From: a virus
Length of the DNA: 31,387 nt
IMG/VR virus record: IMGVR_UViG_3300031578_000224
Location: 1 to 31,387 of that record
Strand: one strand, 5' to 3'
The notes under the pieces are model-generated. The model did not search any database, was not told the origin of the DNA, and worked only from the letters and a program-made list of their open reading frames with translations. The translations under genes were made by a program, and so were the position numbers. How positions within the stretch are numbered: position 1 is the first letter of the stretch; each line of letters begins with the position of its first letter. Below are positions 5,758 through 31,387 of this stretch, piece after piece.

Positions 5758-8700
5758 ATGTATAAAACCTTTAGAGAACAGCAAATGGAAATAGATGTTC
5801 AAAGAAATATTTTAAATCCTAAGTTAAATCCAGGGCAAGCACAGCAGTTATTAGACTTAGGTGCTAGTGAAGAGGAAATTGCATTAACTTATATGAATAG
5901 TGGTGTTCTTACTAGAATGAATAATAATCATGCTGCTGAAATTGTAAAAAATTATCCAGAAATATTAAGCACGATTTCTCAAAAACCATTTGATAGTATT
6001 TCTGTTGATTATTTAGATGACTTAGCTAATAAAGCTCAACTTAATAGAAACTTTAGTGAACTTCCAGAATATGAAGATGATTTATTAGAATATTACACTA
6101 ATGCAACAAAAAGAAGTTATTATACATTAAATGCAAATTATTTAAAAGGAAGAGCATCTAATCCTAATGTTGAAGTAGATAAGACTAATTCATTACTAGA
6201 AAAATCTCAAATGTATTCAAGGAGAGCTGCAAATGTTAGAGGTCAAATACCAACTACATTTGTTCAAAAAACATTAGATTTTACTGGTAGCTTAACAGGA
6301 ACAACTGGAGAGTTCCTAGGATTATCTATAGCTGCTACTAAAGCTGGTGCATTGTCAGGAGGGACAATCGCTGGTGTTCCTGGTGCAGCAATAGGTGGTG
6401 CAGCAGGATTTACTGGTGGACTAGCTCATGCATTCAGTAAAATGTTTTTTGCTTCTCAAGGAGAGAATATTGAAAGATTAAGAGAGGTTAATCCAGAATT
6501 AAACATAACTGATGCTTATGATAAAGCTAAACTTACATCAATAGCTCAATCTGGAGTTGAACAAATTGATTTAATATTTGGATTAGGACTATCTGGGTTG
6601 GTTAGAAAAGCAGGAACAAAAGTTGTACTAGGAGTTGGTGGCTTAGCTAAGGCTGGAGCAAAAGGAGTCTTTGGAGAGTTAATTCTTGAAGAAGGAACTC
6701 AGCAATTATTAGGAGATACTCTAATAGATACTGAAACTGGTGATTTAAGTTTTGGGGTTACATTCTTACAAAACCTTGGTGGTGATATAGAAAATTTATT
6801 TAGTGGTGAGCCTTTAAACCAAAGAAATAAACAGATACTTGATATGTTAAAATATGGATCACCTGTGCTATTTGCTGGTGGTGTTATTGGACAAGTATAT
6901 CAGAATAAGACAGAATGGACTAAAAAAAGAGACGGAGATCCAATAACTCAAGAATATAATAACAACAGGTTAAAAACACAATTAAATAATATACAAACAC
7001 AAAGCAAAGAAAGTAACTTAGTTAATAGTCCTCAATTGGAAAAAGCTATAAATAGTAATCTGTTTAGACAGCCAGTTGCTATTAGTGTAGAAAACTGGAA
7101 CACTTTAAAAGAAAATGGACTACAAAGACTTGAAGGGAAAACTCTAGAGGAGTTTGGTATTTGGTTTGCCGCTGTAGAAAAAAATATTGACTTGGAAACA
7201 TTAAATGAAACCAATGAAGATATAACTCTGCCAGCTGCTGAATATCTTGCAGGAATAGGAATTGAAGATGAATTACTACAAGAAGGTATGCAATATATAA
7301 AATCTAATGAAAATTATTTATCAGAATCAGATAAAAAATTAGTTGATTATGTGAATCTTGACAAACAACTTGAAAGAAAAAGTTCTGAATGGTCAGCTAT
7401 TGAGGATATTATTTCTAATAAAATAGAAAGAAATGAGAATTTATCTGGAAATGAAAAAAACATATTAGCTACTTCTTCTGCTATGAGAGTCGCAGGGGCG
7501 AAAAGAGCTTTAAAGGACGGGGCAGATTTAGATGTAGAAAAGTTTTTTGAAGAGCAAGGATTTGATATAAATGTTGTTAAAAATGTTCCTTTAACAGAAG
7601 AACAAAGAACCTCTAAACAATCAGAAATAGAAGGAGCTTTAATTATAAAAGCTAGAGATGAAGGTAAATTAGAAGGTATTTCTGGGACAAATATTGATAC
7701 AATAATCAAAAACACAAAAGATAAGGTTGCTAAAAAACAATTAAAGCAAATAAGAAAAGATGCTAAAAAAGTTCAACAAACTCAAGAAGGTAAGCTAGGT
7801 AGCTTTAATCAAGAAAGTAAAGTTATATCTCTTTTTTCTGGAAATAATATAACAACTCTATTTCATGAAGTTGAGCATTGGTATGATGACTTTATGCAAA
7901 CTGCATATTTTAACAATACTCTAAATGATGATTCTAGAAGAACTTTTGAAGGAGTTAGAAATCACTTTGGACTGGAAGAGAATGAGAGATTTTCTAAACA
8001 AAATCTTGAAGATTTAGCTGAAATGAACGAAGAATATATGATAAATGGATCAGCTCCTACCTTTGCCCTTAAAAAGTTTTTTGAAACTATAAAAAACATA
8101 ATGTTAGATACTTATGGTTTGATTTCTAAAAGAGGAATAAAAGTTAATCCTAAGATAAAAGAATATTTTGATTTACAATATGTCACTAGAGAAGAACTAA
8201 AGGTGGCTAGGGAAAATGATAGGCTTATAGCCAGAGGTGATATAGAGTCTGATTATTATAAAGACCAGGTTGAAAAAGCTGAAATACTGGAACATAACAT
8301 TGTTTATAAAAATCATCAAAAAAGAAATAAAAGAGAAAACTCTAAAGAAATAGAGTCTTTTAGAAAAAAAGAATTTGATTTAGCAATTAAAGACTTATCT
8401 ACTGAACCAGTATATAAAGCTCAAAAAGCTATAGTATCCCAAGGAAAGTTAGATAGTAAAAATATAAAAGATACTGATTATAATATATCTTCTATTGATG
8501 AAAAATATATAAAACAAGGTGGTTCTATAGGGTTTAATAAGGATGCAGATATAGAAATATTAGCTACTTCAGTTGGATTTGTAGATGCGACTTCTATGTT
8601 AGATTCTTTATCAAGGAGTACAACTATAGAACAAGCTGCAACCCAAAAATCTAGTTTAGCAGTTCAAGAAAGATTAGATAGGGAATTTGGAGAAGATATA

Positions 8701-11408: not shown

Positions 11409-13157
11409 ATGAGTACACCAGTAACGGAAACGGAATTTCCATATGTAGGTAATGATTCGCAGGTAGACTGGGCTTTCACATTTGGGGTAACAAGTACAGA
11501 TGATGTAGGAGTATATTTAGCTTTAGACGGAGCTTTAATTTCAGATTTATTAAACCCAGCTACTTACACAGTGACATACGATGCAGAAACAAATGTTGGT
11601 TCAGTTAAATATCCATTAACTGGAGACCCACTTACACCACAAGATAAGATAGCTATAAAAAGGAATACTATAGTTAAGCAAGGATTTAATTATAAGAACC
11701 AAGCGAAGATAGCAGGTATCAGCCTAGAAGGTAGTGATGACAATTTATCAAGACAAATTCAAGATAATGCTAATACAGCAAAAAGAGCTATAACTGTTGA
11801 TGTAACTTCTACGCAAACAGCTGAAGAATTATTACAAAGTATTTATGATGCTGACGCAAATACAAATGAAAATGCAGCTTTGACTGCAGCTGATGTTGTT
11901 AGTACTAATGCTGATGTAGTTTCTACTAATGCAGATGTAGTTTCTACTAATGCAGATGTGGTATTGACAAATGCAGATGCAGTAGCAACAGCAGGAGATA
12001 GAGTCCAAACTGGACTAGATAGAATACAAACAGGTTTAGATGTAGCTTCAACTAATGCTGATGTAGTAAGTACTAATTCTGATGTAGTTGAAGCAACAGC
12101 TCAAGCAGTAATAGCTCGAGAAGGTTGGAAAGGCGAATGGTTAATCGGAACAACTTATGCAGAAAATGAAAAAGTGCAATATCTAGGAAGTTCTTATATT
12201 TCATTGCAAGATTCAAACACAGGACAAAATCCTATAGTTCCGTTAAGTGCTTTTTGGGATTTAATTGCCTTAAAAGGAACAGATGGAGCTGGAACTGTTG
12301 CCTCAGTAGTTGGAGGCACAAATATAACAGTAGATAACACTGACCCAGCTAATCCTATTGTTAATAATGATATAACAGATACAGATGATTTAACAGATAC
12401 AGCAACAAATAGATACACTAACGATACTGATATTACAAGATTAGCTAATACTTCAGGTACTAATACAGGCGACCAAGATATAAGTTATGATAAAGGCTAC
12501 ATAAATGGTGGTGTTATAAGTAATAATGTAGGATTGCCTTTAAAAACAATAGACATAACAGATTGTTTATCTCGTTCACAAGATGATACAGAAGATTTAA
12601 GCTTTACTGTAACAAGTTTAAACATAGATACAGCAGGAGATTTTGCTAGCGGAATTATCCCTACCTTAACTTCTACAAGAATTTATATTTGGACTGAATA
12701 CAATGGAGGAACTAACAGAGCTATATTTGATGATGAAACAGGAACTAATTTAGATAATGCTGGTAAATCAGAGATGATTGGTTATTTCGACACAGATTCT
12801 AGTGGAAATATAATAACAGGTTCACAAGTTCAAAGATTACCAGAACCTTTTGAAACAGCTTTATATAGAGGTGGAGATACTTTATTTAGTGGTAGTGCTG
12901 GGGTATCAACTATTAACTTACTTAATGATATGAATGAATATAAGTGGTTAGAATTTACAGGAAATTATAATAATACTGATAATATTGTTTGTATAAGACT
13001 TAGAAAAGGGTTTCAAGAAGATACTAATACAACATACCTAAATCGTTCTATTGATATTGCTGCAAGAGCAGTAGCAGTTATATATAATAGTGATACATCA
13101 ATAGATATAGTAGGAGCAACAAACATGACATTAATAAAAGTAGTGGGGATAAAATAA
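11409..13157 (+). CDS. Tail fibre protein with T7-type N-terminal domain and carbohydrate-binding-like module
   Basis: 582 residues; AAGGAG lies eight bases before the ATG. Residues 1-about 140 match the T7 gp17 N-terminal virion-attachment domain (ETEFPYVGNDSQVDWAF, PLTGDPLTPQDKIAIKR, and SLEGSDDNLSRQIQDNA). Residues about 150-240 are a coiled-coil stalk with seven-residue NADVVST repeats. Residues about 238-285 (WLIGTTYAENEKVQYLGSSY, then a Trp in AFWDL) have the pattern of a small CBM5/12-like carbohydrate-binding fold. The C-terminal half is beta-rich and Thr/Asn-rich, as in trimeric fibre tips, and would bind the host receptor. The stop overlaps the next start by one base (TAATG). Confidence 0.85.
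   Translation: MSTPVTETEFPYVGNDSQVDWAFTFGVTSTDDVGVYLALDGALISDLLNPATYTVTYDAETNVGSVKYPLTGDPLTPQDKIAIKRNTIVKQGFNYKNQAKIAGISLEGSDDNLSRQIQDNANTAKRAITVDVTSTQTAEELLQSIYDADANTNENAALTAADVVSTNADVVSTNADVVSTNADVVLTNADAVATAGDRVQTGLDRIQTGLDVASTNADVVSTNSDVVEATAQAVIAREGWKGEWLIGTTYAENEKVQYLGSSYISLQDSNTGQNPIVPLSAFWDLIALKGTDGAGTVASVVGGTNITVDNTDPANPIVNNDITDTDDLTDTATNRYTNDTDITRLANTSGTNTGDQDISYDKGYINGGVISNNVGLPLKTIDITDCLSRSQDDTEDLSFTVTSLNIDTAGDFASGIIPTLTSTRIYIWTEYNGGTNRAIFDDETGTNLDNAGKSEMIGYFDTDSSGNIITGSQVQRLPEPFETALYRGGDTLFSGSAGVSTINLLNDMNEYKWLEFTGNYNNTDNIVCIRLRKGFQEDTNTTYLNRSIDIAARAVAVIYNSDTSIDIVGATNMTLIKVVGIK
11889..11972 (+). repeat. Four tandem 21-base repeats in the tail fibre stalk
   Basis: Units at 11889, 11910, 11931 and 11952, each 21 bases and in frame, encoding ADVVSTN-type heptads. 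Units 2 and 3 differ by a single base; unit 4 is more diverged. Further degenerate copies lie at about 12040-12090. Such in-frame repeats can change fibre length by slippage or recombination. Confidence 0.85.
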
Positions 13158-17169: not shown

Positions 17170-17459
17170 GTAATATTTATCTTTCTTTGTAATAGTCTTT
17201 TTTTAACAGCATTAATAAGTTCTTCTTCTTTAATATCGCAGTCATAAGCTCCATACATCATATTAGCTGCTTTAACATAATTATGATTTTCATACCCACA
17301 AGCTAGTATAAATAATTCAGCTTTAACATTTATATCATATGATGGGTAAAGCCTTTTTTTGTCTTGCTCGTAAGTCATATCATAAATATTATCCAGTCTT
17401 TCCTCTGTATAATCTTTCATAGCTAATGTTATTTTATATTTAAATGTTGCTCTGGTCAT
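17166..17459 (-). CDS. Unknown 97-aa protein
   Basis: Start chosen at the ATG at 17459 (MTRATFKYKI), which overlaps the end of the methyltransferase by 20 bases; a longer frame begins 14 codons earlier inside that gene. The ribosome binding site is only AAAGAAAG, so coupling is likely. The protein has a basic N-terminus, a mixed helix region and a Cys in ILACGY and YDCD. The end, EELINAVKKRLLQRKINIT, is helical and basic. No family is recognised. The stop codon sits inside the -35 box of the lysis promoter. Confidence 0.6.
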   Translation of the reverse strand: MTRATFKYKITLAMKDYTEERLDNIYDMTYEQDKKRLYPSYDINVKAELFILACGYENHNYVKAANMMYGAYDCDIKEEELINAVKKRLLQRKINIT

Positions 17460-18102
17460 CGTGTAATCTTTCTTTTGCAATATTAAAATACTTTTCATCA
17501 AGTTCTATTCCTATAAATTTACGATTTAGATTCTTGCAAGCTACTCCTGTTGTGCCACTTCCTAAAAAAGGATCGCATATTATTAAATTATCAGGTAATA
17601 TACCAATTATGTTTTCCATAACCTTTAATGGCATTTGACAAGGATGTTCTGTTTTATCTTTACTTATATTTTTAACTTGATTTATATTCCACCAATCATA
17701 TAGTTTAGCTCCAGTTTTTCCTTCTGCAATTCTTTTTTGTATTCTTTTATCTTTTAAATTCTTATAAGGCTGTCTAACCTTTTTAAAATCTGGTTTAATT
17801 CCATAAAAAGCTATTTGTCTATGTTGTTTTCCTGTATTAGAATTATAAACCCAACTAATAACTTTTTCAGGAGCTTTGCCTAATTTTATACTTAATTCGT
17901 GTAATTGCTCTGCATAGTGTATAATTACTGCAGGTTTATCTTTTATTACTCTTGATAACATATTATAATATTCTTCTTTTTTCATTTTATCTTTATAAGA
18001 ATTGTATTTATAACCTATGTTAAATGGTGGATCGGATACAACTATGTCATAATCAATTTTATCCATTGACTCTAAGCAATCTCCATTATATAATTTAATC
18101 AT
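17440..18102 (-). CDS. Orphan DNA methyltransferase, beta class (N6-A or N4-C)
   Basis: 220 residues. Catalytic motif IV is SDPPFNIGY with D24-P-P-F27; the SAM-binding motif I is DPFLGSGTTG at 177-186, followed by FIGIELDEKYF. The order IV then I defines the beta group (HinfI/MboII-like). A middle region with WVYNSNTGKQHRQ and DWWNINQVKN is typical of this family's target-recognition portion. No restriction enzyme gene is nearby, so it is probably a phage methylase that protects the genome from host restriction or alters regulation. Start three bases after the helicase stop, with weak AGAGAT spacing. Confidence 0.88.
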   Translation of the reverse strand: MIKLYNGDCLESMDKIDYDIVVSDPPFNIGYKYNSYKDKMKKEEYYNMLSRVIKDKPAVIIHYAEQLHELSIKLGKAPEKVISWVYNSNTGKQHRQIAFYGIKPDFKKVRQPYKNLKDKRIQKRIAEGKTGAKLYDWWNINQVKNISKDKTEHPCQMPLKVMENIIGILPDNLIICDPFLGSGTTGVACKNLNRKFIGIELDEKYFNIAKERLHDDQSNI

Positions 18103-20228: not shown

Positions 20229-20951
20229 TTAGAAAGGAATAAAATCACTTTCTATAGGCGTACCTGTTTCTACTTCTGCTTTAGCAACTCCACCACCCCA
20301 AGCAGGTAAATCTCTTTGTTCATCAAGAGGTAACCATTTTTTAACAACAGCATTTTCTCTTAATTCACCCTCATAAGTAGTTGTTTCGTTTCCAATTCTA
20401 GCAGCTCCTACTTTACCAATCCACAAAGGAGTGTTAATAGAGAAAGAAACTCCATCAAAACTATCCATAAACGCATTAATCATTCCATTAAACATATTTT
20501 TTGTTTGCTCGTCATCATCTGAATTAGGGATAACCATCCAATGCTTAACTAAATTTTTACTTCCACTTAACTCTAAAGTGATTGTAGCCATTTTTCTTTG
20601 AGGAGTTTTTTTAGTAAATCCTTCTTTTACTTCTTTAATCCTTACTCTGTATTCACCAGGTTCTGGTAAAAGGAATGGCAACACAACATTAGCATATTTT
20701 CCGTCAGCACTATGCTTAACTTCTAATTTAGCAGTAGCACCTAGTAAATTCTCTGTACCAAAAGCTTTATGTAATTGACCTTCTGTTTGTTCAAACATTT
20801 GTTGTCTGATTGTACTTCCTGTAGCCACATCTTCTAACATAGCTTTTTCATTATCAATACTCTTGATTTTAAATGTATATACACCTTCATCCATTTTTTC
20901 AAATGTTGATTTAGCTTCTGGATTTGGTGTGTAATCGTCAAATAGTCCCAT
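20229..20951 (-). CDS. Single-stranded-DNA-binding-type protein with SSB-like C-terminal tip (DUF669/DUF2815-like)
   Basis: 240 residues. After a short N-terminus (MGLFDDYTPNPEAKSTFEKM) the core is beta-rich, with EPGEYRVRIKEVKEGFTKK and MATITLELSG, as in DUF669-type phage ssDNA-binding proteins. It ends in GTPIESDFIPF, which closely mimics the acidic DDDIPF tip by which bacterial SSB recruits partner proteins. It lies in one operon with a Sak4-like ATPase and a Cas4/RecB-like nuclease; Sak4 single-strand annealing needs such an SSB. The start overlaps the previous stop by one base. Family name is uncertain; the ssDNA-binding role is well supported by context and tail. Confidence 0.7.
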   Translation of the reverse strand: MGLFDDYTPNPEAKSTFEKMDEGVYTFKIKSIDNEKAMLEDVATGSTIRQQMFEQTEGQLHKAFGTENLLGATAKLEVKHSADGKYANVVLPFLLPEPGEYRVRIKEVKEGFTKKTPQRKMATITLELSGSKNLVKHWMVIPNSDDDEQTKNMFNGMINAFMDSFDGVSFSINTPLWIGKVGAARIGNETTTYEGELRENAVVKKWLPLDEQRDLPAWGGGVAKAEVETGTPIESDFIPF

Positions 20952-21475: not shown

Positions 21476-22288
21476 TTACTTTTCTCCTTCTATTTTATTG
21501 TTATTTTTATCTTGCCCTGTAACAGGACTTGCAGTCTTTGCTTTAGCGTCAGTTCCTGTATTCGGTACTTCCACCACTTTCTCACTTGTATTGTTATCAT
21601 TTAATAACTCCTCTGGTTTACAACCTTTTCTTCCTGCTCTATCTTTAGCGTAAAATTTACCATCTTTACTTTCAAACATAATAGACCTTGCTTCACTGTT
21701 AGGGTCTTTCATTAAATACCCAACTGTATCTACCATACCACAAATCTTTTGTGCATCTGCTCCATTTTTTGAACCTACCATAGGTATTAATTGATCTATT
21801 TGCACTCCAGAATCTGTTGTAATAGTAAATGGTGTTTCCCAAGCTGTAAAAATTATATTAACACCTTTTTCTACAAGGTTTTTATAAGACCTTAATACAT
21901 TTTGTAATGTATAAGAAGCTCTTAAATAATCTCCTTGTTGAGGTGCACACATAGGTTTACCATCTTTTGTAAGGTTTTGCATAGAAAGATGAGTTAAAAA
22001 AGCTTCTCTTACTTCTGTTAAAGTATCAATACAAACAGTGTCGTAAATACATTTTCCCTCTAGTTCTGCTAAATGACTAGATAATTGATCCATTCCACTT
22101 GAATAAACAACATCAACATCTTTAACGTCTTTCTGTTTTCTTAAAACTTTAGAACCTCTATCTGTATCTATAACTAAAGTCTTTCCTGGAAGCCTACCTA
22201 AAAGGTAAGTCTTACCTACTCCTGGTTTGCAGTATAATAATACACTTGCTCCAGTCTTAACATCATCATTGATATTTATTATATCCAT
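21476..22288 (-). CDS. RecA-like AAA_24 ATPase (Sak4-type recombinase)
   Basis: 270 residues. Walker A CKPGVGKT (20-27), then KTLVIDTDRGSKVL, Walker B YDTVCIDTLTEV (about 83-95), QQGDYLRASYTLQNVLRSYK, and IIFTAWETP, a typical Sak4 beta-strand/sensor. The C-terminal 40 residues are a low-complexity Lys/Thr/Asn tail. Sak4 proteins are single-strand annealing ATPases working with a phage SSB, which here is encoded three genes downstream. AAGGAG precedes the ATG. A weak inverted repeat (22308-22340) lies between it and the upstream gene. Confidence 0.85.
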   Translation of the reverse strand: MDIININDDVKTGASVLLYCKPGVGKTYLLGRLPGKTLVIDTDRGSKVLRKQKDVKDVDVVYSSGMDQLSSHLAELEGKCIYDTVCIDTLTEVREAFLTHLSMQNLTKDGKPMCAPQQGDYLRASYTLQNVLRSYKNLVEKGVNIIFTAWETPFTITTDSGVQIDQLIPMVGSKNGADAQKICGMVDTVGYLMKDPNSEARSIMFESKDGKFYAKDRAGRKGCKPEELLNDNNTSEKVVEVPNTGTDAKAKTASPVTGQDKNNNKIEGEK

Positions 22289-22817: not shown

Positions 22818-23597
22818 TCACTCTTCTCCCTTATAATACTTATTCCTTACACAACCTAAAGGTAATTCTCCTTTTTGATGTGTTAAACAATAACTTTTAT
22901 GCTTACATCCACCAAATATATTACAAGCAGTTTTGTTTCTATAGAATAGCTTAGTATCTCTCATATGTCTAGCTAATTCTAATGTTTCTTCCCTATGTTT
23001 AGTAACTCTTTCTTTTGATACGGGAAACTTAAAACATCTTATTTTAGATTCTGTATCTGTTTTATACCAATTAACTCTTTCTTTAAAAAAGTCAGCTTCT
23101 GATTGATTTTTCTTGAGTCTTAAAGTGCATTTTTTGATAACAGTATATAATACATCATAAGTTTCTTCAAGTCCACAATAAATAGGTATCTGGTCGTCCC
23201 ACTGTAAATCATACTCAAGTTGCTCATCGATTTTCTGACTTGTAGTTTTATGTTCGACTATATAACGTCTTTTATTAACACTTGTCTTTGCATCGGTGAT
23301 TGAATTAAGTCTGATATCGTGAGACAGACCAGAATTCTTATATTCCTCAGTTGTTATATCTTCCCAAGAACTAATATCTATATGATTGATAAAAGCTTGG
23401 ACTAAGTAGTTGTCGCTACTTGTAATTTTACCTAATAAATATTGCTCTAAATCTTCGTGGTATTTGCTACCAATAGCTAGAGTAGAATGTTTTTGAGCTG
23501 GTTCTAATCCTTCAATATATGTTAGTTCAAAATCCCTCCTACATTTTTTAAAACAACTTATTTTACTAGCTGATATTGTGTATGGTTCTTCTTCCAT
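22818..23597 (-). CDS. PD-(D/E)XK nuclease with Fe-S-type cysteine set (Cas4/RecB family)
   Basis: 259 residues. The N-terminus SKISCFKKCRRDFELTY (11-27) holds C15/C19 in the typical RecB-like first helix. H47 lies in YHEDL, D102 in ITDAK and E115-H-K117 in VEHKTT: the H, D, ExK series of the active site. Q132/Q136 lie in LQWDDQIPIY. Near the C-terminus are C225, C231, C237 and C249 (ACNIFGGCKHKSYC, then GCV). One N-terminal and three C-terminal Cys suit a 4Fe-4S cluster as in Cas4 and AddB. Phage members trim or degrade DNA ends in recombination or host DNA breakdown. It follows a perfect promoter and precedes the Sak4-SSB genes. Confidence 0.88.
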   Translation of the reverse strand: MEEEPYTISASKISCFKKCRRDFELTYIEGLEPAQKHSTLAIGSKYHEDLEQYLLGKITSSDNYLVQAFINHIDISSWEDITTEEYKNSGLSHDIRLNSITDAKTSVNKRRYIVEHKTTSQKIDEQLEYDLQWDDQIPIYCGLEETYDVLYTVIKKCTLRLKKNQSEADFFKERVNWYKTDTESKIRCFKFPVSKERVTKHREETLELARHMRDTKLFYRNKTACNIFGGCKHKSYCLTHQKGELPLGCVRNKYYKGEE

Positions 23598-26806: not shown

Positions 26807-26861
26807 GTTTTATTTTATATTGTTTCTTTTCCTTATTTACTATTACTTTATCTGTTTTCAT
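26796..26861 (-). CDS. Micro-ORF, 21 aa
   Basis: ATG at 26861 with AGAGGATAAATAGAT upstream, the same initiation sequence (GGATAAATAGATATG) used by the 58-residue gene at 27680-27856. It starts MKTDKVIVNKEKKQYK and ends in KLDK. Very basic. Its final codons form the TTGACA of the next promoter. Support rests on the ribosome binding site and the short spacing to the upstream gene (6 bases); the product is unknown. Confidence 0.4.
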   Translation of the reverse strand: MKTDKVIVNKEKKQYKIKLDK

Positions 26862-26867
26862 ATCTAT

Positions 26868-27050
26868 TTATCCTCTCTTGTTAGTTTGTTTGTTTAAATT
26901 CCTAAAACACATACTTAAGCCATCTGCCATATCGTTTAATGGTCTTGGTTTAGGATACTTATACATACAAGGATGGAATATGATGCCATTTTTTATATCT
27001 TTTCTAATTTTTTCTAATGCTTGTTTTTGATATTCTCTCATTTCTCTCAT
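26868..27050 (-). CDS. Unknown 60-aa basic protein
   Basis: The first ATG (27050) overlaps the previous stop by ATGA; a second ATG at 27041 has a better distance from the AAAGGAG and may be the real start. It reads MREMREYQKQALEKIRKDIK, then a central Pro/Tyr stretch (FHPCMYKYPKPRP), and ends NKQTNKRG. Basic, Cys at two positions, no membrane helix. No family is recognised. Confidence 0.5.
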   Translation of the reverse strand: MREMREYQKQALEKIRKDIKNGIIFHPCMYKYPKPRPLNDMADGLSMCFRNLNKQTNKRG

Positions 27051-27190
27051 TCTCCTTTTAATAATCTTCTCACAGCTCTGCTATGCCTTGTTTTTATATA
27101 TTTTTTTACTTTACGATTTTTTCTCCAATATGCTTTAGATTCTTCAAACTCATAACCATCAGTCTTAACTATTATCTTTTGTTTCTTCAT
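27047..27190 (-). CDS. Small very basic protein, 47 aa
   Basis: ATG at 27190 preceded by AAAGGAG five bases upstream; stop TGA at 27049-27047 overlaps the next ATG. It starts MKKQKIIVKTDGYEFEESKA and continues YWRKNRKVKKYIKTRHSR. About a third of its residues are Arg or Lys, suggesting nucleic-acid binding; this is composition only. It follows directly on a long inverted repeat. Confidence 0.6.
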   Translation of the reverse strand: MKKQKIIVKTDGYEFEESKAYWRKNRKVKKYIKTRHSRAVRRLLKGE

Positions 27191-27208
27191 ACATTCTCCT
27201 TTTAAAGT

Positions 27209-27271
27209 GGCAGGCTTGTGTTAATTCAAAGTTGTAAAAAAGAGTTAAAACACAAATTAAGTTGACCTGCC
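27209..27271 (-). promoter_or_regulatory. Two-step inverted repeat before the 47-aa gene
   Basis: Outer arms GGCAGG/CCTGCC (27209-27214 and 27266-27271) and inner arms TTGTGTT/AACACAA (27216-27222 and 27249-27255), separated on one side by a 10-base bulge. On the - strand the 5' arm lies in the end of the 69-residue gene and the 3' arm ends six bases before AAAAGGAG. No U-run of terminator length follows; a processing or attenuation structure is more likely. Confidence 0.55.
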
Positions 27272-27466
27272 GTTGTTAATCTTTTTTATTCCTTCTATAA
27301 TCATTTCTGCTTGAGCTTTTGCTATCTTAAATGGCTGTAATGCTTCTTCAACTCTATTTATATCGCCATACTTTTCCGTATCGTTCTCGTGTCTTCCTTG
27401 ATATTCAACTAACAAATACTCTAATTTTTGTATTTCTTCATCTATGTAACCCATCTCATTCCTCAC
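27257..27466 (-). CDS. Unknown coiled-coil protein, 69 aa
   Basis: Start taken at 27466; GTGAGGA is very close to that ATG, and the ATG at 27454 (MGYIDEEIQKLEYLL) is an equally good candidate. Helical throughout (IDEEIQKLEYLLVEYQGRHE and VEEALQPFKIAKAQAEMIIE), acidic start and basic end. Such small helical proteins often act as adaptors, but there is no defining motif. Its 3' end forms the 5' arm of the downstream inverted repeat. Confidence 0.55.
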   Translation of the reverse strand: MRNEMGYIDEEIQKLEYLLVEYQGRHENDTEKYGDINRVEEALQPFKIAKAQAEMIIEGIKKINNGRST

Positions 27467-27677
27467 TTTCTAGTTGTTTAAGTTTTTCCTTTGTTTTTAT
27501 AATATGCCAATCTTTTCTTAAATCTTCACAAGTTCTATTGTGAACTTCTTGATATTTATAACAAATAGAATTTTTACTTCCATAATTAACTAATAGACTT
27601 ATTATTGTAATTATTAAAAATATAATACCTGTTGTTATAATACTAGCCCATAATTCATTTTTTTTATCTTGATTCAT
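27456..27677 (-). CDS. Small membrane protein, 73 aa
   Basis: ATG at 27677, two bases after the previous stop, with AAGGAAAAATAGAT upstream. A hydrophilic start (MNQDKKNELWAS) is followed by one strong membrane helix at about 13-30 (IITTGIIFLIITIISLLV) and a C-terminal helix ending KTKEKLKQLESEE. Cys at two positions. The KLKQL end shares its DNA with the upstream 58-residue gene (16 identical bases). It probably sits in the inner membrane with the C-terminus on one side; role unknown. Confidence 0.65.
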   Translation of the reverse strand: MNQDKKNELWASIITTGIIFLIITIISLLVNYGSKNSICYKYQEVHNRTCEDLRKDWHIIKTKEKLKQLESEE

Positions 27678-27679
27678 AT

Positions 27680-27856
27680 CTATTTTTCCTTTCCTTTTAG
27701 TTGTTTAAGTTTTGCTTCTGCTTCTGGTCTTGTTGTGAAAATTACATCTCCACTTGCTGCTCCAGTTTTAAGCATTTCATATATTTCTTCAAAATCACTT
27801 CTACATACTTTTTTTAAGTATATCACATAAAATGTCATATCTTTCAAACAAGGCAT
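27680..27856 (-). CDS. Unknown protein, 58 aa, with TTRPEAEAKL tail
   Basis: ATG at 27856 with GGGATAAATAGAT upstream; stop TAG at 27682-27680, two bases before the next ATG. It starts MPCLKDMTFYVIYLKKVCRS and contains VIFTTRPEAEAKLKQLKGK near the end. Beta-hairpin followed by helix, as in small phage proteins of the 'V-Y-T-T-R-P-x-A-E' type whose function is unknown. Strong fit between its two neighbours. Confidence 0.65.
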   Translation of the reverse strand: MPCLKDMTFYVIYLKKVCRSDFEEIYEMLKTGAASGDVIFTTRPEAEAKLKQLKGKEK

Positions 27857-27862
27857 ATCTAT

Positions 27863-27940
27863 TTATCCCTTTCTATCATAGTGTTTTTCAATATCTTCTG
27901 CGAATAGTCCTAAGAACCACATTTTAATCTTATGTATCAT
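27863..27940 (-). CDS. Micro-ORF, 25 aa, sharing its end with a second micro-ORF
   Basis: ATG at 27940 with AGAGGAAATAAT upstream; stop TAA at 27865-27863. MIHKIKMWFLGLFAEDIEKH followed by YDRKG. The last 22 bases or so are an exact copy of the end of the 18-residue frame at 28155-28211 (IEKHYDR). Amphipathic; no function known. Real translation is supported by the ribosome binding site and by the preserved shared end. Confidence 0.45.
   Translation of the reverse strand: MIHKIKMWFLGLFAEDIEKHYDRKG
27871..27892 (-). repeat. Exact 22-nt repeat, copy 1
   Basis: Identical over 22 bases to 28166-28187, in the same strand orientation; both copies encode IEKHYDR at the end of a micro-ORF and lie just before the ribosome binding site of the next gene. 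Confidence 0.9.
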
Positions 27941-27982
27941 ATTATTTCCTCTTCTTTCCTCTCTTATATACTTGATGGTTGG

Positions 27983-28153
27983 TTAAATAGTTCCTGTAAT
28001 AATTATACTCATTCCACCAATAATAAGTGATAATACTCCTAAAATTGCTAATGCAAAACTTCTAATAATTTTATTATCATCCCATAAATCTTCTGCCTTA
28101 ACAAAACTATAACAATAAAACAAAATCATAACAACCCCTACAATATATCCCAT
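27983..28153 (-). CDS. Two-helix membrane protein, 56 aa
   Basis: Start chosen at the ATG at 28153 (MGYIVGVVMILFYCYSF), preceded by AGAGGGTATTGAT; a longer frame starts at 28186 without such a site. Two membrane helices: about 2-17 and about 33-53 (FALAILGVLSLIIGGMSIII), separated by the charged KAEDLWDDNK. Small two-helix proteins in early phage regions may be inhibitors or exclusion factors, but nothing here shows which. Confidence 0.6.
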   Translation of the reverse strand: MGYIVGVVMILFYCYSFVKAEDLWDDNKIIRSFALAILGVLSLIIGGMSIIITGTI

Positions 28154-28154
28154 A

Positions 28155-28211
28155 TCAATACCCTCTTCTATCATAGTGTTTTTCAATTAGTCTTTTTAGT
28201 AGCTTTAACAT
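28155..28211 (-). CDS. Micro-ORF, 18 aa, sharing its end with the 25-aa micro-ORF
   Basis: ATG at 28211 overlaps the end of the zinc-ribbon gene by 7 bases and the stop lies one base before the next ATG. Sequence MLKLLKRLIEKHYDRRGY. Its 3' part is a 22-base exact repeat of the micro-ORF at 27863-27940. Upstream AAAG is a poor ribosome binding site, so translation would depend on coupling. Confidence 0.35.
   Translation of the reverse strand: MLKLLKRLIEKHYDRRGY
28166..28187 (-). repeat. Exact 22-nt repeat, copy 2
   Basis: Identical to 27871-27892. The distance between copies is 295 bases, and the segment between them contains a complete membrane-protein gene. Confidence 0.9.
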
Positions 28212-28342
28212 ACTTTACCACACTTTCCACAATAATAATTCATTGGTATTTCTCTGCTAAAACTAATATCTAAAGAACCACAATTACATATTATTACTTG
28301 TTTTATGTATCTATACCAAAATATTTTTAGTAGCTTAATCAT
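28205..28342 (-). CDS. Small zinc-ribbon protein, 45 aa
   Basis: ATG at 28342, AAAGGAA about eight bases upstream; stop TAA at 28207-28205. After a basic, hydrophobic start (MIKLLKIFWYRYIKQV) it has CNCG at 19-22 and CGKCGKVC at 38-45, two Cys pairs about 17 residues apart: a classical zinc ribbon. Such phage ribbon proteins may bind RNA polymerase or nucleic acid; that is inference. The N-terminus could lie against the membrane. Confidence 0.7.
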   Translation of the reverse strand: MIKLLKIFWYRYIKQVIICNCGSLDISFSREIPMNYYCGKCGKVC

Positions 28343-28360
28343 TGGTGGATTCCTTTAGTT

Positions 28361-28675
28361 TTAATCTGTTTCTACTATTTTACAAAATTCTTCTAATTTC
28401 TTGTAATCTTCAAAATAAAATCTGTATCCGTTAAATACTGTTGATATATTTGACTCTAATAAACTAAATAAATCTTGCTTAGATACTTCAATAGTTTCAT
28501 AATCTTTTTTATTATCATCTTTTACAAAATCTAAAACAACCTTTTCTTCTTCTGTATAATTTTTTTCGAATGGTCTAAAATGTGTGCTATAACATTCAAA
28601 TCTTTTATAAATATCTCCAGATATACCTTTATTTAAATATTCTATCATTTGTTTTTTATTTTTTACTTCCATCAT
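28361..28675 (-). CDS. Unknown protein, 104 aa
   Basis: Starts with two consecutive ATGs (28675 and 28672) 20 bases inside the end of the YopX-like gene; the GAAAGGAAAC in that gene's coding sequence is its ribosome binding site. Charged N-terminus (MMEVKNKKQMIEYLNKG), central KNYTEEEKVVLDFVKDD, and a C-terminal half with YRFYFEDYKKLEEFCKIVE. Soluble alpha/beta character, no known family. The start region is one of the near-identical junction repeats. Confidence 0.6.
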   Translation of the reverse strand: MMEVKNKKQMIEYLNKGISGDIYKRFECYSTHFRPFEKNYTEEEKVVLDFVKDDNKKDYETIEVSKQDLFSLLESNISTVFNGYRFYFEDYKKLEEFCKIVETD

Positions 28676-29060
28676 CGTTTCCTTTCTCTGTGTGGATGTT
28701 TCCTATTTTTTTACATCTTTTAACTTGTGATTCAAAACTAATTGCCATTTCCCCTTTTTTGTAAAGTTTAACATCTTTATATAATTTTATTTCATAACCA
28801 AATGTATCTTGACAGAACATAACACTATAATGATAACCATCTTCATCTACTAATAAATCATTTTCATAAATTAAATCTCCGTTTTTATCCTTTAATCCAG
28901 TGCAAAACTCTTTTACAAATCTATCTTTTGAAGTAAAAATATATTCAAAAGAAATTGATTTATTTATATCTGACTCAAGGTGCCACTTTAATGTTTCTTT
29001 TTTAAAATACCAATGTTCTTTTAATCTAGTATCCCAAACTCTAAATAGTCTTTCTTCCAT
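28656..29060 (-). CDS. YopX-family protein (cassette type B, copy 2)
   Basis: 134 residues. The YopX pattern is visible: MEERLFRVWDTRLKEHWYF at the start, CTGLKDKNGDLIYENDLLV at about 53-71, a Tyr/Phe beta region, and CKKIGNIHTEKGN near the end (the GNI box). YopX proteins are common small phage proteins of unknown function. The start is coupled to the previous gene by TAATG, with AAAAGGAG in that gene's C-terminal codons. The last codons (HTEKGND) hold the ribosome binding site of the next gene and match the end of the type B gene at 29370-29705. Confidence 0.82.
   Translation of the reverse strand: MEERLFRVWDTRLKEHWYFKKETLKWHLESDINKSISFEYIFTSKDRFVKEFCTGLKDKNGDLIYENDLLVDEDGYHYSVMFCQDTFGYEIKLYKDVKLYKKGEMAISFESQVKRCKKIGNIHTEKGNDDGSKK
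28670..28694 (-). repeat. Junction repeat B-to-next, copy 2
   Basis: 25 bases matching 29375-29399 with one mismatch. On the - strand it encodes the HTEKGN end of a type B gene and at the same time holds GAAAGGAAAC and the ATGATG start of the following gene. Confidence 0.9.
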
Positions 29061-29088
29061 TACTCACACTCCTTTTCTGTTGGTGGTG
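29053..29088 (-). repeat. Junction repeat A-to-B, copy 2
   Basis: 36 bases matching 29698-29733 with one mismatch. On the - strand it encodes the PP(T/I)EKECE end and stop of a type A gene, the AAAAGGAG ribosome binding site inside those codons, and the TAATGGAAGA start of a type B gene. Confidence 0.92.
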
Positions 29089-29380
29089 CTTTAATATATG
29101 GGTCAACTAGACTCAAACATTTCTTACAAGCTGTTTTCTCAAAGTCGTGAGGAAACTCCATATCTTTATTCATATATGCAAAATACATACCTATTAAAGC
29201 TTCCTTTAGCTCTTTTATTTCTTTTTCTTGAGATTCTAAAAGCATAGCATACTTTAAAGCCATAGATAAAGCATAATTAGTACCTTTGCTAAATCTTTCG
29301 CTAGATATAAATTCTTTTAATTCTTTTATAGAAAATGTTTGTGTCTTTAATCTCTCTTCTACTGTTAAATTACTCATCAT
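29060..29380 (-). CDS. Cassette type A gene, copy 2: MSNLT...TEKECE protein, 106 aa
   Basis: Starts at ATG-ATG (29380/29377) with GAAAGGAAAC in the end of the upstream type B gene. It shares with the larger gene at 29705-30385 the start MSNLT(V/I)E, a coiled-coil EKEIKELKE in the middle and the end PPTEKECE. The remaining sequence is different: LSMALKYAMLLESQ, then a FEKTACKKCLSL segment with a Cys pair. It lacks the DUF551-like part. Looks like a shortened or recombined relative. Function unknown. Confidence 0.65.
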   Translation of the reverse strand: MMSNLTVEERLKTQTFSIKELKEFISSERFSKGTNYALSMALKYAMLLESQEKEIKELKEALIGMYFAYMNKDMEFPHDFEKTACKKCLSLVDPYIKAPPTEKECE

Positions 29381-29705
29381 TGTTTCCTTTCTCTGTGTGA
29401 GGGTCTTTGTATTTAAGATTTTTTACCTTTTTATATCTTGTAAAACTAATATACTCAACTTCTACTTCTTCAGCTATTGCATTTGGTTCTTTGTAGTGTG
29501 TTAAATCTTCAAATAGTCCACCAAAACTATCATTTGTATAAACTCTATATAGTTTCCCCCAACACTCAAATATACAAGAATAAAAATTAACAATACCTTT
29601 TTCTATAATCTTCTTTTTTATTGGTATTAATCCAGCAACTTCTTCCATATTATTGAAAGCTTTTTTTAGTTTCCAAACCCCAACTTTTTCTGTATTATCT
29701 TCCAT
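29370..29705 (-). CDS. Cassette type B gene, copy 1: unknown 111-aa protein
   Basis: Start coupled by TAATG to the type A gene, with AAAAGGAG in that gene's final codons. MEDNTEKVGVWKLKKAFNNM, then IPIKKKIIEKGIVNFYSCIF, and a Tyr/Phe-rich C-terminal half ending YKDPHTEKGNNDE. Only the first residues (ME) and the HTEKGN end match the type B copy at 28656-29060; the body has no YopX motif. No family is recognised. Confidence 0.6.
   Translation of the reverse strand: MEDNTEKVGVWKLKKAFNNMEEVAGLIPIKKKIIEKGIVNFYSCIFECWGKLYRVYTNDSFGGLFEDLTHYKEPNAIAEEVEVEYISFTRYKKVKNLKYKDPHTEKGNNDE
29375..29399 (-). repeat. Junction repeat B-to-next, copy 1
   Basis: Pairs with 28670-28694 (24 of 25 bases). It encodes HTEKGN of the type B gene, and supplies the ribosome binding site and ATGATG start of the downstream type A gene. 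Confidence 0.9.
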
Positions 29706-29733
29706 TACTCACACTCCTTTTCTATTGGTGGTG
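29698..29733 (-). repeat. Junction repeat A-to-B, copy 1
   Basis: Pairs with 29053-29088 (35 of 36 bases), 645 bases apart. Encodes PPIEKECE-stop, internal AAAAGGAG, and the next start (TAATGGAAGA). Confidence 0.92.
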
Positions 29734-30385
29734 TTATTGGTTTCCAATGTGTTATTTGTTTTCCATAATATATACCTTCTATAAAAAAGTTATTTTTTTT
29801 ACCTAAATGAACCTCTGTATATTTATTTTTTATTCCATTATTATCACAAATCAATACAAACCCATTATCTTTACTATATTCTACAACTTGAGGATAACCA
29901 TAAATTAACTCCCCATTTTCTTTATTCCTAATATATATTTCAAAATAACCATCATCATCCTCTGGCAATTCCTCATTAACATCTCTCCATTTGTTTTGTA
30001 ATATTTCAGCATCTCTTTCACAATGAGCTTGTATCATTAGATTTCTTAGTTTTTCGTTTTCTTCCTTTAGCTCTTTTATTTCTTGTTTTGACTTAAATAA
30101 TTTACTTTCATAAGCTTTATAATCAAGTTTATCTATACAAATTTTAGTTTCTAATAAATCTGAAATAACTTTAGGAAACTTATCCTTTTCTTTACTAAAT
30201 ATTTTTATTAAATCCTTATAATCATCTGAAGAAGCTTTTAATAACTCCTTTAGCTCTTTTATTTCTTTTTCTAATACATAAGCCGATTCTCTTATAGCTT
30301 GTTGCACTACTCCATCATCCGATATAATACTATCAGCACATTTGTTTAATACTTCTATATGTTGTTCTATTGTTAAATTACTCAT
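29705..30385 (-). CDS. Cassette type A gene, copy 1: coiled-coil plus DUF551-domain protein
   Basis: 226 residues; AAAGGAG lies in the end of the upstream gene. Residues 1-about 120 are helical (MSNLTIEQHIEVLNKCADSI, then EKEIKELKELLK and a second coiled coil around KQEIKELKEENEKL). Residues about 130-222 match DUF551: WRDVNEELPEDDDGYFEIYI at the start and GKQITHWKPITPP at the end, the W-x-x-V...LP and THW boxes. The tail PPIEKECE contains the ribosome binding site of the next gene. DUF551 is widespread in phages with unknown role. Confidence 0.78.
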   Translation of the reverse strand: MSNLTIEQHIEVLNKCADSIISDDGVVQQAIRESAYVLEKEIKELKELLKASSDDYKDLIKIFSKEKDKFPKVISDLLETKICIDKLDYKAYESKLFKSKQEIKELKEENEKLRNLMIQAHCERDAEILQNKWRDVNEELPEDDDGYFEIYIRNKENGELIYGYPQVVEYSKDNGFVLICDNNGIKNKYTEVHLGKKNNFFIEGIYYGKQITHWKPITPPIEKECE

Positions 30386-30662
30386 TGTTTATCTCCTTTG
30401 GTTTGTTTATATAAGCCCAATGTGTTATTTCTTCTAAAATATACATAGAACCTTTTTTAACTAATCCTTTAAATTTAGTTTTTGAATAAAATCCTGAAGA
30501 AGCAACTTTAAGACAAAATGTATCTACTCCAAATATACTTTTATTATCATAGAAAGATGAACCTCTTATATGTTTCTTTCTACTAATATCTTCTATTGTT
30601 TTTAATTTTACAGGTTTTCCATTTTCAGGCAACCTATCATTTACATCAATCCAATCTATCAT
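30378..30662 (-). CDS. DUF551-domain protein, 94 aa
   Basis: ATG at 30662 with AGGAGAGAG upstream. MIDWIDVNDRLPENGKPVKL at the start and EEITHWAYINKP near the end form the DUF551 boxes with the expected distance. It is a stand-alone version of the domain that is fused to a coiled coil in the next gene, so two DUF551 proteins are encoded in tandem. The end KPKEINNE overlaps the next start by 8 bases and provides AAAGGAG for it. Confidence 0.75.
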   Translation of the reverse strand: MIDWIDVNDRLPENGKPVKLKTIEDISRKKHIRGSSFYDNKSIFGVDTFCLKVASSGFYSKTKFKGLVKKGSMYILEEITHWAYINKPKEINNE

Positions 30663-30680
30663 AATCTCTCTCCTATTTTG

Positions 30681-30791
30681 TTAAAATATTATACAAAGTT
30701 CTATTATTAACTCTACTATAGCAAATAAAGCTATATCCCAATTTATATTATTCTTTTTAGAATCTATAATTATCAATATCAATAATCCCAT
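30681..30791 (-). CDS. Tiny hydrophobic membrane protein, 36 aa
   Basis: ATG at 30791 with AAGGAG eight bases upstream; stop TAA at 30683-30681. MGLLILIIIDSKKNNINWDI, then a second hydrophobic stretch ALFAIVELIIELCIIF. Two short hydrophobic segments separated by a polar loop. Without the ribosome binding site this would be a weak call; with it, translation is likely. Function unknown. Confidence 0.55.
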   Translation of the reverse strand: MGLLILIIIDSKKNNINWDIALFAIVELIIELCIIF

Positions 30792-30811
30792 ATCATCATC
30801 TCCTTAAATTG

Positions 30812-31060
30812 TTAATCTACTTGTTTTAAAGCTTTTAGACCTAGTTTTATATATTCTTTAATTTTTAAATCAGAACCTAACACCTCTGATACTAATTGAC
30901 ATCTGTCAGACTTTTCATACAATTCATCAGCCCAATCTTCAATCATTTTTTCTATAAATTCTAAATCTAAAAAATCCATACTTTCTTTATATTTTTGGAT
31001 TCTTCCTAATATTTCTAATATAAACTTTGTATCTCTCACAATATTGTCCTTATCTTCCAT
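30812..31060 (-). CDS. Unknown helical protein, 82 aa
   Basis: ATG at 31060 with AGGAGGATATA directly upstream. MEDKDNIVRDTKFILEILGR followed by YKESMDFLDLEFIEKMIEDW and a C-terminal LGLKALKQVD. All-alpha and acidic. The end resembles other small genes here that finish in K-A-(F/L)-K-Q. No family is recognised. Confidence 0.65.
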   Translation of the reverse strand: MEDKDNIVRDTKFILEILGRIQKYKESMDFLDLEFIEKMIEDWADELYEKSDRCQLVSEVLGSDLKIKEYIKLGLKALKQVD

Positions 31061-31061
31061 T

Positions 31062-31083
31062 ATATCCTCCTATTTTAGTTGTT
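31062..31083 (-). repeat. Exact 22-nt gene-junction repeat, copy 1
   Basis: Identical to 31238-31259. On the - strand it holds the end of one gene and the TAGGAGGATAT ribosome binding region of the next. Here it is read as ...N-N-stop. Confidence 0.9.
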
Positions 31084-31236
31084 AAATACTTCAAATGTAT
31101 AATTATTCATTTCCCATTCACTATCAGCATTATCTCTTATAATTTGTTCTATATCATCATCTTTACTATTATATTCTTCAATTATATTTCCTGCTTTATC
31201 ATAAACATTTAATACAGAATTTTCTACTTCGCTCAT
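31075..31236 (-). CDS. Small acidic protein, 53 aa
   Basis: ATG at 31236, AGGAGGATATT upstream; stop TAA at 31077-31075. MSEVENSVLNVYDKAGNIIE, then EYNSKDDDIEQIIRDNADSE, and it ends in NNYTFEVFNN. Strongly acidic; DNA-mimic or adaptor roles are typical for such early proteins, but no motif proves either. Lies between two copies of a 22-base junction repeat. Confidence 0.65.
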   Translation of the reverse strand: MSEVENSVLNVYDKAGNIIEEYNSKDDDIEQIIRDNADSEWEMNNYTFEVFNN

Positions 31237-31237
31237 A

Positions 31238-31259
31238 ATATCCTCCTATTTTAGTTGTT
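31238..31259 (-). repeat. Exact 22-nt gene-junction repeat, copy 2
   Basis: Identical to 31062-31083, but the upstream gene reads it in a different frame (Q-L-K-stop), so the DNA and not the peptide is what is conserved. Confidence 0.9.
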
Positions 31260-31387
31260 TAAAAGCTTTAACCTTCTCATATATATTATAACAGCTATAA
31301 CATACATCATATTTGTTTGCATCTTTTATATTATCGCAATCCTCTTTGCTAGGTAGTGAATAACAACCACTCTCTATAATCTTTTCA
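31246..31387 (-). CDS. Partial gene: C-terminal 46 residues of a small Cys-containing protein
   Basis: Open frame entering from the right window edge (first complete codon at 31386) to TAG at 31248-31246. It reads EKIIESGCYSLPSKEDCDNI and then KYDVCYSCYNIYEKVKAFKQ, ending in LK. Cys at four positions, including C-Y-S-C, may bind metal. The start is outside the window. Confidence 0.6.
   Translation of the reverse strand, partial: EKIIESGCYSLPSKEDCDNIKDANKYDVCYSCYNIYEKVKAFKQLK

Follow-up and report, generated by a model that had tools for sequence, protein, structure and literature searches.

Mosaic joints in phage genomes have been attributed either to recombination targeted to short boundary sequences or to random illegitimate joining sorted by selection, and the debate persists in part because few joints show a boundary sequence (PMC3029335, PMC3233612). 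Boundary-sequence mosaicism was reported by Clark et al. (2001) for phage HK620, as summarized in later papers (PMC3029335, PMC3233612); at most mosaic joints such sequences are not findable (PMC3029335). In the cluster I mycobacteriophages Brujita and Island3, gene 68 is an extra orphan gene carried by one phage and absent from the other, and the last 18 residues and approximately 50 bp of the orphan match those of its upstream neighbour (PMC3029335). Here, we describe a run of short genes joined by near-identical sequences (linkers) in IMGVR_UViG_3300031578_000224, a linear 31,387-bp virus record that is a fragment and was analysed at its full length (the window). Comparison with a relative, IMGVR_UViG_3300031669_000108 (G001), makes it likely that gene bodies have been exchanged between shared linkers in this early operon, which is mosaicism of a known type, that at conserved boundary sequences.

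The original prediction drew attention to four genes of two alternating types, A1, B1, A2 and B2. All four open reading frames are present, and they and their linkers are as follows.

29705 to 30385, minus strand: A1, 226 residues, with N terminus MSNLTIE, two EIKELKE coil segments, a DUF551-like C-terminal part and the tail PPIEKECE
29370 to 29705, minus strand: B1, a 111-residue orphan with the tail HTEKGNNDE and a body that is not YopX
29060 to 29380, minus strand: A2, 106 residues, with the start MSNLTVE, one EKEIKELKE and the tail PPTEKECE
28656 to 29060, minus strand: B2, 134 residues, YopX family, with the tail IGNIHTEKGN
29698 to 29733, minus strand: A-to-B linker copy 1, comprising PP-x-EKECE codons, the AAAAGGAG ribosome-binding site, a TAATG stop/start and ATGGAAGA
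29053 to 29088, minus strand: A-to-B linker copy 2, identical to copy 1 at 35 of 36 bases
29372 to 29399, minus strand: B-to-next linker copy 1, comprising HTEKGN codons, AGAAAGGA and ATGATGAGT; 28/28 bases identical to G001 36118 to 36145
28670 to 28706, minus strand: B-to-next linker copy 2, comprising GNIHTEKGN codons, a ribosome-binding site and ATGATG; 36/37 bases identical to G001 36106 to 36142

The junction identities proved to be as predicted: the A-to-B copies differ at one base of 36 (E = 9.5e-12), and the B-to-next linker, CACACAGAGAAAGGAAAC(A/G)ATGATG, is identical at 24 of 25 bases between 29375-29399 and 28670-28694. The best self-repeats of the 5,088-base early region score 61.7, 50.0, 46.4 and 44.6 bits; none of 200 dinucleotide shuffles of the region gave such repeats, the highest score among them being 36.5 bits.

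Outside the linkers, identity falls sharply. B2 matches the YopX profile (Pfam PF09643) with an E value of 2.5e-10 over profile positions 2 to 122 of 128, whereas the B1 body scores 0.7 bits against this profile and is outscored by 273 of 500 shuffles; hence only B2 is YopX-type, as had been proposed. A weak blastp match had raised B1 as a cryptic YopX protein, but it included the linker and disappeared both when the linker was removed and when the profile was used. The AlphaFold model of B1 was unusable, with a mean predicted local distance difference test (pLDDT) score of 38. With linkers removed, the B1-B2 comparison scored 41, which is not significant (equalled by 85 of 2000 shuffles), and the A1-A2 comparison, with the coil masked as well, scored 26 (equalled by 737 of 2000). 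What A1 and A2 have in common is their start (MSNLT[I/V]E; 20 of 21 bases) and the DNA of EKEIKELKE, a 27-base exact match between A1 30246-30272 and A2 29202-29228. A further copy in A1 at 30063-30087, missed by the earlier reading, is 96% identical to 30246-30272. The DNA encoding EIKELKE is thus present in three copies with 94 to 100% identity, and may serve as a linker inside genes for coiled-coil proteins. The DUF551 match of A1 reaches 17.2 bits, under the curated cutoff of 22; a DUF551 gene adjoins A1 at 30378-30662, and the HW-containing end segments of the two are alike. Altogether, the A-B-A-B arrangement appears to be a local outcome, two A and two B genes whose joints are shared but whose interiors are unrelated, and it may have begun as a tandem duplication that was followed by body replacement.

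To find the linkers elsewhere, we scanned databases with linker patterns. A degenerate B-to-next pattern matched four contigs in IMG/VR, of which only G001 was real. A 24-base A-to-B pattern had no match, and the seven contigs matched by a degenerate version were all judged on inspection to be coding coincidences. G001 is 37,256 bp long and is probably complete, because it has a 127-bp direct terminal repeat. Its structural proteins are distant from those of the window (26 to 35% for a TTB-like protein), and its replication genes are unlike the window's, with Erf, a single-stranded DNA-binding protein (SSB) and a DnaB-like helicase where the window has the Sak4-like set. By protein comparison, only three early genes of the window match G001. 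Nonetheless, window positions 26836 to 31387 and the early region of G001 form a parallel mosaic of near-identical patches of 20 to 275 bp. Following transcription, the linkers, shared genes and swapped bodies are as follows.

31233 to 31262, minus strand: linker AACAACTAAAATAGGAGGATATTATG, at the start of the gene at 31075 to 31236 and the right end of a 156-bp patch shared with G001 (99.4%)
31075 to 31236, minus strand: body swap 1, MSEVENS (53 residues) against MRKWKEI (47 residues) in G001, flanked in both by the same linkers, AACAACTAAAATAGGAGGATATTATG before and TTTAACAACTAAAATAGGAGGATATAATG after
31051 to 31088, minus strand: linker TTTAACAACTAAAATAGGAGGATATAATGGAAGA, at the start of the gene at 30812 to 31060, with three related copies in G001
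28361 to 28675, minus strand: body swap 2, MMEVKNK (104 residues) against MMSERRK (57 residues) in G001, bounded by the HTEKGN and MIKLL linkers
28324 to 28360, minus strand: linker AACTAAAGGAATCCACCAATGATTAAGCTACTAAAAA, 37/37 bases identical in G001, leading straight into MIKLLKIF in the window
28205 to 28342, minus strand: shared gene MIKLLKIF (45 residues), 136/138 bases identical to G001
28159 to 28187, minus strand: TTGAAAAACACTATGATAGAA copy 1, which with copy 2 flanks a window-only gene starting at 28174
27864 to 27892, minus strand: TTGAAAAACACTATGATAGAA copy 2, in the linker before the gene at 27680 to 27856
27680 to 27856, minus strand: body swap 3, MPCLK (58 residues) against a short stub and a NUMOD4-HNH endonuclease gene in G001
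27678 to 27706, minus strand: LKGKEK linker, comprising LKGKEK codons, AAAGGAAA and the stop; 27678 to 27702 is 25/25 identical to G001 842 to 866
27456 to 27677, minus strand: shared gene MNQDKKN (73 residues), 97% identical in amino acids and at 207/208 bases over its first part
27451 to 27479, minus strand: KQLESEE linker, 29/29 identical in G001
27257 to 27454, minus strand: body swap 4, MGYIDEE against MELHFNK in G001, the common DNA inside being only 23 bases near the gene end
27192 to 27217, minus strand: linker CTGCCACTTTAAAAGGAGAATG, 22/22 identical in G001, with a shorter second window copy at 27048 to 27061
26868 to 27190, minus strand: body swap 5, MKKQKII (47 residues) and MREMREY (60 residues) against one G001 gene, MYKNEY (53 residues)
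26859 to 26890, minus strand: KQTNKRG linker AACAAACTAACAAGAGAGGATAAATAGATATG, 32/32 identical in G001

After TTTAACAACTAAAATAGGAGGATATAATG the genomes are dissimilar over a long stretch, which holds the gene at 30812-31060, the DUF551 gene, A1, B1 and onward in the window, and genes including a methyltransferase, then YopX, in G001. The B-to-next linker ends the G001 YopX gene as well as B1 and B2; the G001 YopX protein and B2 are only 33% identical over 81 residues, yet have 36 of 37 linker bases in common. What comes after this linker is MMSERRK in G001, which is then followed by the fully identical next linker, and MMSNLTV or MMEVKNK in the window. Downstream of AACTAAAGGAATCCACCAATGATTAAGCTACTAAAAA, G001 has a methyltransferase gene (N6_N4_Mtase) and then a second copy of the linker's last 19 bases, so that the gene is flanked by two copies of ATGATTAAGCTACTAAAAA; it is absent there in the window. 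Conversely, G001 has a single TTGAAAAACACTATGATAGAA copy and nothing corresponding to the window gene that starts at 28174. The NUMOD4-HNH endonuclease gene of G001 ends with the same LKGKEK tail as the 58-residue gene of the window. A second, partial KQLESEE copy in G001 encloses an extra 55-residue gene between the copies, and the second partial copy of CTGCCACTTTAAAAGGAGAATG in the window stands between the two genes of body swap 5. Thus, unrelated bodies lie between the same linkers at five places, and three other places have a gene in one genome only, with linker repeats on both sides. Such repeat-flanked presence and absence is consistent with exchange by recombination within boundary sequences. 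These data support the proposal that gene bodies were swapped rather than duplicated with drift, and extend it well beyond A-B-A-B. The boundary linkers are not fixed, however: they vary in number and place, being duplicated along with insertions.

The shared patches are tied to gene starts. In nine of the 11 merged patches there is a start codon together with the 10 bases upstream of it, compared to 3.1 expected, and about 0.3% of circular shifts do as well; 11 of 17 starts fall in shared patches, against an expected 3.3, a result reached by 0.26% of circular shifts. It is conceivable, if improbable, that the linkers are regulatory start-associated elements copied for expression control, while the bodies change by independent illegitimate recombination. 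Most linkers do hold a ribosome-binding site and start, and they stand just upstream of starts of different gene families, some recurring before unrelated genes in the manner of the start-associated sequences (SAS) of mycobacteriophages (PMC3203893). However, the linkers take in the last codons of the upstream gene and comprise several unrelated sequences. The SAS 13-mer, GGGATAGGAGCCC, was not found before starts in the window with up to two deviations allowed, and no 17-bp imperfect inverted repeats of the extended SAS (ESAS) type lie beside the linkers, the one inverted repeat of the region being in a window-only spacer. Nor is the early-promoter element of T4-like phages, the promoter-early-stem-loop (PeSL), apparent: 33 promoter-like sites were counted compared to 37 in shuffles, and the linkers have no hairpins. 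Moreover, direct repeats of a linker stand on both sides of inserted genes, which recombination through the linkers predicts.

We further weighed a tandem A-B duplication followed by drift, with purifying selection holding only the translation-initiation DNA. This would account for the A-B-A-B order, for the first 21 bases, EKEIKELKE segment and tail that A1 and A2 have in common, and for a faint likeness of B1 and B2, in the shuffle result above and in a 94-nucleotide ungapped extension at 70%. It is nevertheless quite improbable, as the bodies have no significant similarity and different linker sequences act as ribosome-binding sites in the same operon; initiation alone therefore dictates neither one sequence nor the C-terminal codons upstream. 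Divergence from G001 tells against it as well. Across ten linkers, 5 of 301 bases differ (296 identical), a figure biased towards identity because the linkers were chosen for matching, and three shared coding stretches differ at 4 of 494, whereas the segments between linkers do not outscore shuffles, with the exception of a 23-base match at the end of a gene, which resembles another piece of linker. The shared genes are as young as the linkers (approximately 1% divergence), so drift cannot have made homologous bodies unrelated. Since linkers and shared genes are about 98 to 99% identical while the bodies are unrelated, duplication with drift is excluded for the differences between the window and G001.

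Assembly chimerism, in which short-read contigs of co-occurring strains were joined at shared patches, is less probable still. The two records are contigs from IMG/VR, each of an uncultivated virus, and an assembler could cross over at shared patches; on the other hand, linkers of 22 to 40 bp are under usual read lengths, open reading frames span the joints, both A-to-B copies occur in one contig, and the 127-bp terminal repeat of G001 suggests a complete molecule. An integron-like site-specific cassette system with linkers as recombination sites would suit a small-gene array with shared elements at most joints, but it is scarcely credible, given that searches of the window and G001 detected no tyrosine or serine recombinase (no PF00589 match in either), that the linkers fold no better than shuffles, unlike structured attC-like sites, and that their sequence varies from joint to joint.

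Body exchange between shared linkers would proceed as follows. Adjoining short genes in a codirectional early operon are joined by linkers of 20 to 45 bp, typically made of the upstream gene's last codons, the stop, the Shine-Dalgarno sequence, and the next gene's start and first codons. Where linkers are identical, whether in two phages or within a single molecule, they would recombine, and the body between them would be replaced, inserted or deleted; the incoming protein would take the end residues that the linker encodes, such as EKECE, HTEKGN, KQLESEE or LKGKEK. As the crossover would fall inside the translation joint, any incoming body would be translated at once in the right context. B1 may illustrate such an event. 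In other phages, YopX proteins close with IGNIH or a motif like it and then a short variable tail, and both B2 and the G001 YopX protein have IGNIHTEKGN near the end; thus, the B-to-next linker is naturally taken for a YopX gene's 3' end. In B1, HTEKGN and the DNA that follows are present, but neither IGNI nor a YopX body is. On the simplest reading, its tail would have been transplanted from a YopX gene by a crossover at CACACAGAG that joined a foreign body.

From sequence comparison, we infer that homologous or annealing recombination carried out the exchange. Candidate genes for this in the window are the following.

21476 to 22288, minus strand: Sak4-like single-strand annealing protein, a candidate recombinase with predicted annealing activity (PHROG 124, E = 3e-41; PF13479)
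20229 to 20951, minus strand: putative single-strand DNA binding protein ending in SDFIPF (PHROG 378, E = 2e-7), in the same cluster as the sak4-like gene
22818 to 23597, minus strand: PD-(D/E)XK exonuclease-like protein, a possible partner of the Sak4-like protein

The G001 Erf protein matches PF04404 (E = 2.5e-15), and in both phages an SSB-type protein is encoded in the same region as the annealing protein. Rad52-type phage recombinases, including Erf, act on diverged sequences and dominate short-homology exchanges (PMC3945230), and Sak4 of HK620 anneals single strands, aided by its SSB (PMC5928155). Recombination by annealing proteins is the likeliest route, because such proteins are present, no tyrosine or serine recombinase was found in either record, the linkers are unstructured, and there is neither a promoter excess nor an SAS. 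The chance that the phages' predicted annealing proteins, Sak4-like in the window and Erf in G001, are the enzymes themselves is about even. It is speculation that the G001 HNH endonuclease adds double-strand breaks.

Several points weigh against body exchange through linkers. The comparison has one relative only, the IMG/VR, phage and plasmid collections having yielded no other convincing linker carrier. The A-to-B linker was found only in the window despite the pattern scans, so that its case rests on the repeat together with the absent body similarity. The window record is a fragment, and an integrase could lie outside it; linkers of 20 to 40 bp are short substrates for efficient recombination; both records are assembled contigs, in which chimeric assembly at shared patches is possible; and the enzyme of the exchange is known by inference only. 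A bolder proposal, which we consider rather doubtful, is that the operon is a dedicated gene-capture platform whose distinct translation-joint linkers are kept as recombination handles, with which the annealing protein would load and unload new early genes from a shared pool in an integrase-free analogue of a cassette array.

The rest of the window is laid out as in a tailed phage. Its rightward genes are of tail and virion type, one tail protein being approximately 30% identical to those of Pseudomonas AF-type podoviruses, and a leftward block holds helicase, primase, exonuclease-like, Sak4-like and SSB-like genes. Past this replication block, at 26.3 to 31.4 kb, the genes are short, mostly orphan and without exception leftward; A1, B1, A2 and B2 belong to this run, which forms the cassette-like early operon of a tailed, probably podovirus-like phage. 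The record stops at its right end within the 156-bp stretch that is 99.4% identical to G001 (31232-31387), and the mosaic region therefore probably extends past the window.

Relatives were also sought through A2, the primase alone and a two-sequence primase alignment, none of which gave a close one, and through a helicase alignment, which gave distant phages only (best, 44%). Several replication genes are shared with a single contig, of Synergistales (L096), which has no early genes in common with the window; its related replication module (3871-5868) includes a helicase gene with an extra, intein-like internal stretch. The CAACTAAAATAGGAGGATA pattern has three matches in G001; it also matches three contigs, all of one further phage type and sharing their flanks, which were judged coincidence or convergence. 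In L201, L202 and L203, contigs of another phage type, 21 to 22 exact bases, (GA)ACAACTAAAATAGGAGGATA, occur at a gene start, which may reflect coincidence, convergence or a wider linker. A 263-bp piece of a tail-fibre-like gene is 80% identical between window 12491-12753 and G001 23078-23340, most of the gene not being so, which suggests fibre domain exchange. N6/N4-type DNA methyltransferases at window 17440-18102 and G001 36348-37082 are 31% identical overall, yet a 48-bp stretch at the start matches at 92% and a 56-bp stretch close to the end at 79%, which may mean further mosaicism or just conserved family motifs.

The position of the linkers, across stop, ribosome-binding site and start, accounts for how one gene can take the place of an unrelated one and still be expressed. 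It also predicts that unrelated small phage proteins will have short C-terminal tails in common whose cause is genomic, not functional, a point that bears on the annotation of orphan genes.

In searches confined to an open-access library, we found no match to such a linker array. Four described systems resemble it in part. As in boundary-sequence mosaicism, short shared junction DNA encloses different genes, breakpoints lie at gene ends, and presence and absence are flanked by repeats; here, however, most joints over approximately 4.5 kb carry a boundary sequence, typically across stop, ribosome-binding site and start. The KQLESEE case has the same structure as gene 68 of Brujita and Island3, which is a single event, whereas the present operon has a series of linkers, two-linker body swaps and the tandem A-B-A-B. 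Like the SAS and ESAS of cluster K mycobacteriophages (PMC3203893), the repeats stand just before unrelated gene starts and are tied to translation initiation. SAS represent a single 13-bp motif, accompanied in roughly half of the cases by 17-bp inverted repeats (PMC3203893), while the linkers are several, longer, free of inverted repeats and inclusive of the upstream gene end. The PeSLs of T4-like phages (PMC4503421) are likewise repeated elements tied to the shuffling of early genes, but they are early promoters with stem-loops, and the linkers have neither a promoter excess nor stem-loops. What sets this locus apart is the density of its linkers, the use of several different ones within an operon, their position astride stop, ribosome-binding site and start, and the A-B-A-B recurrence within one genome.

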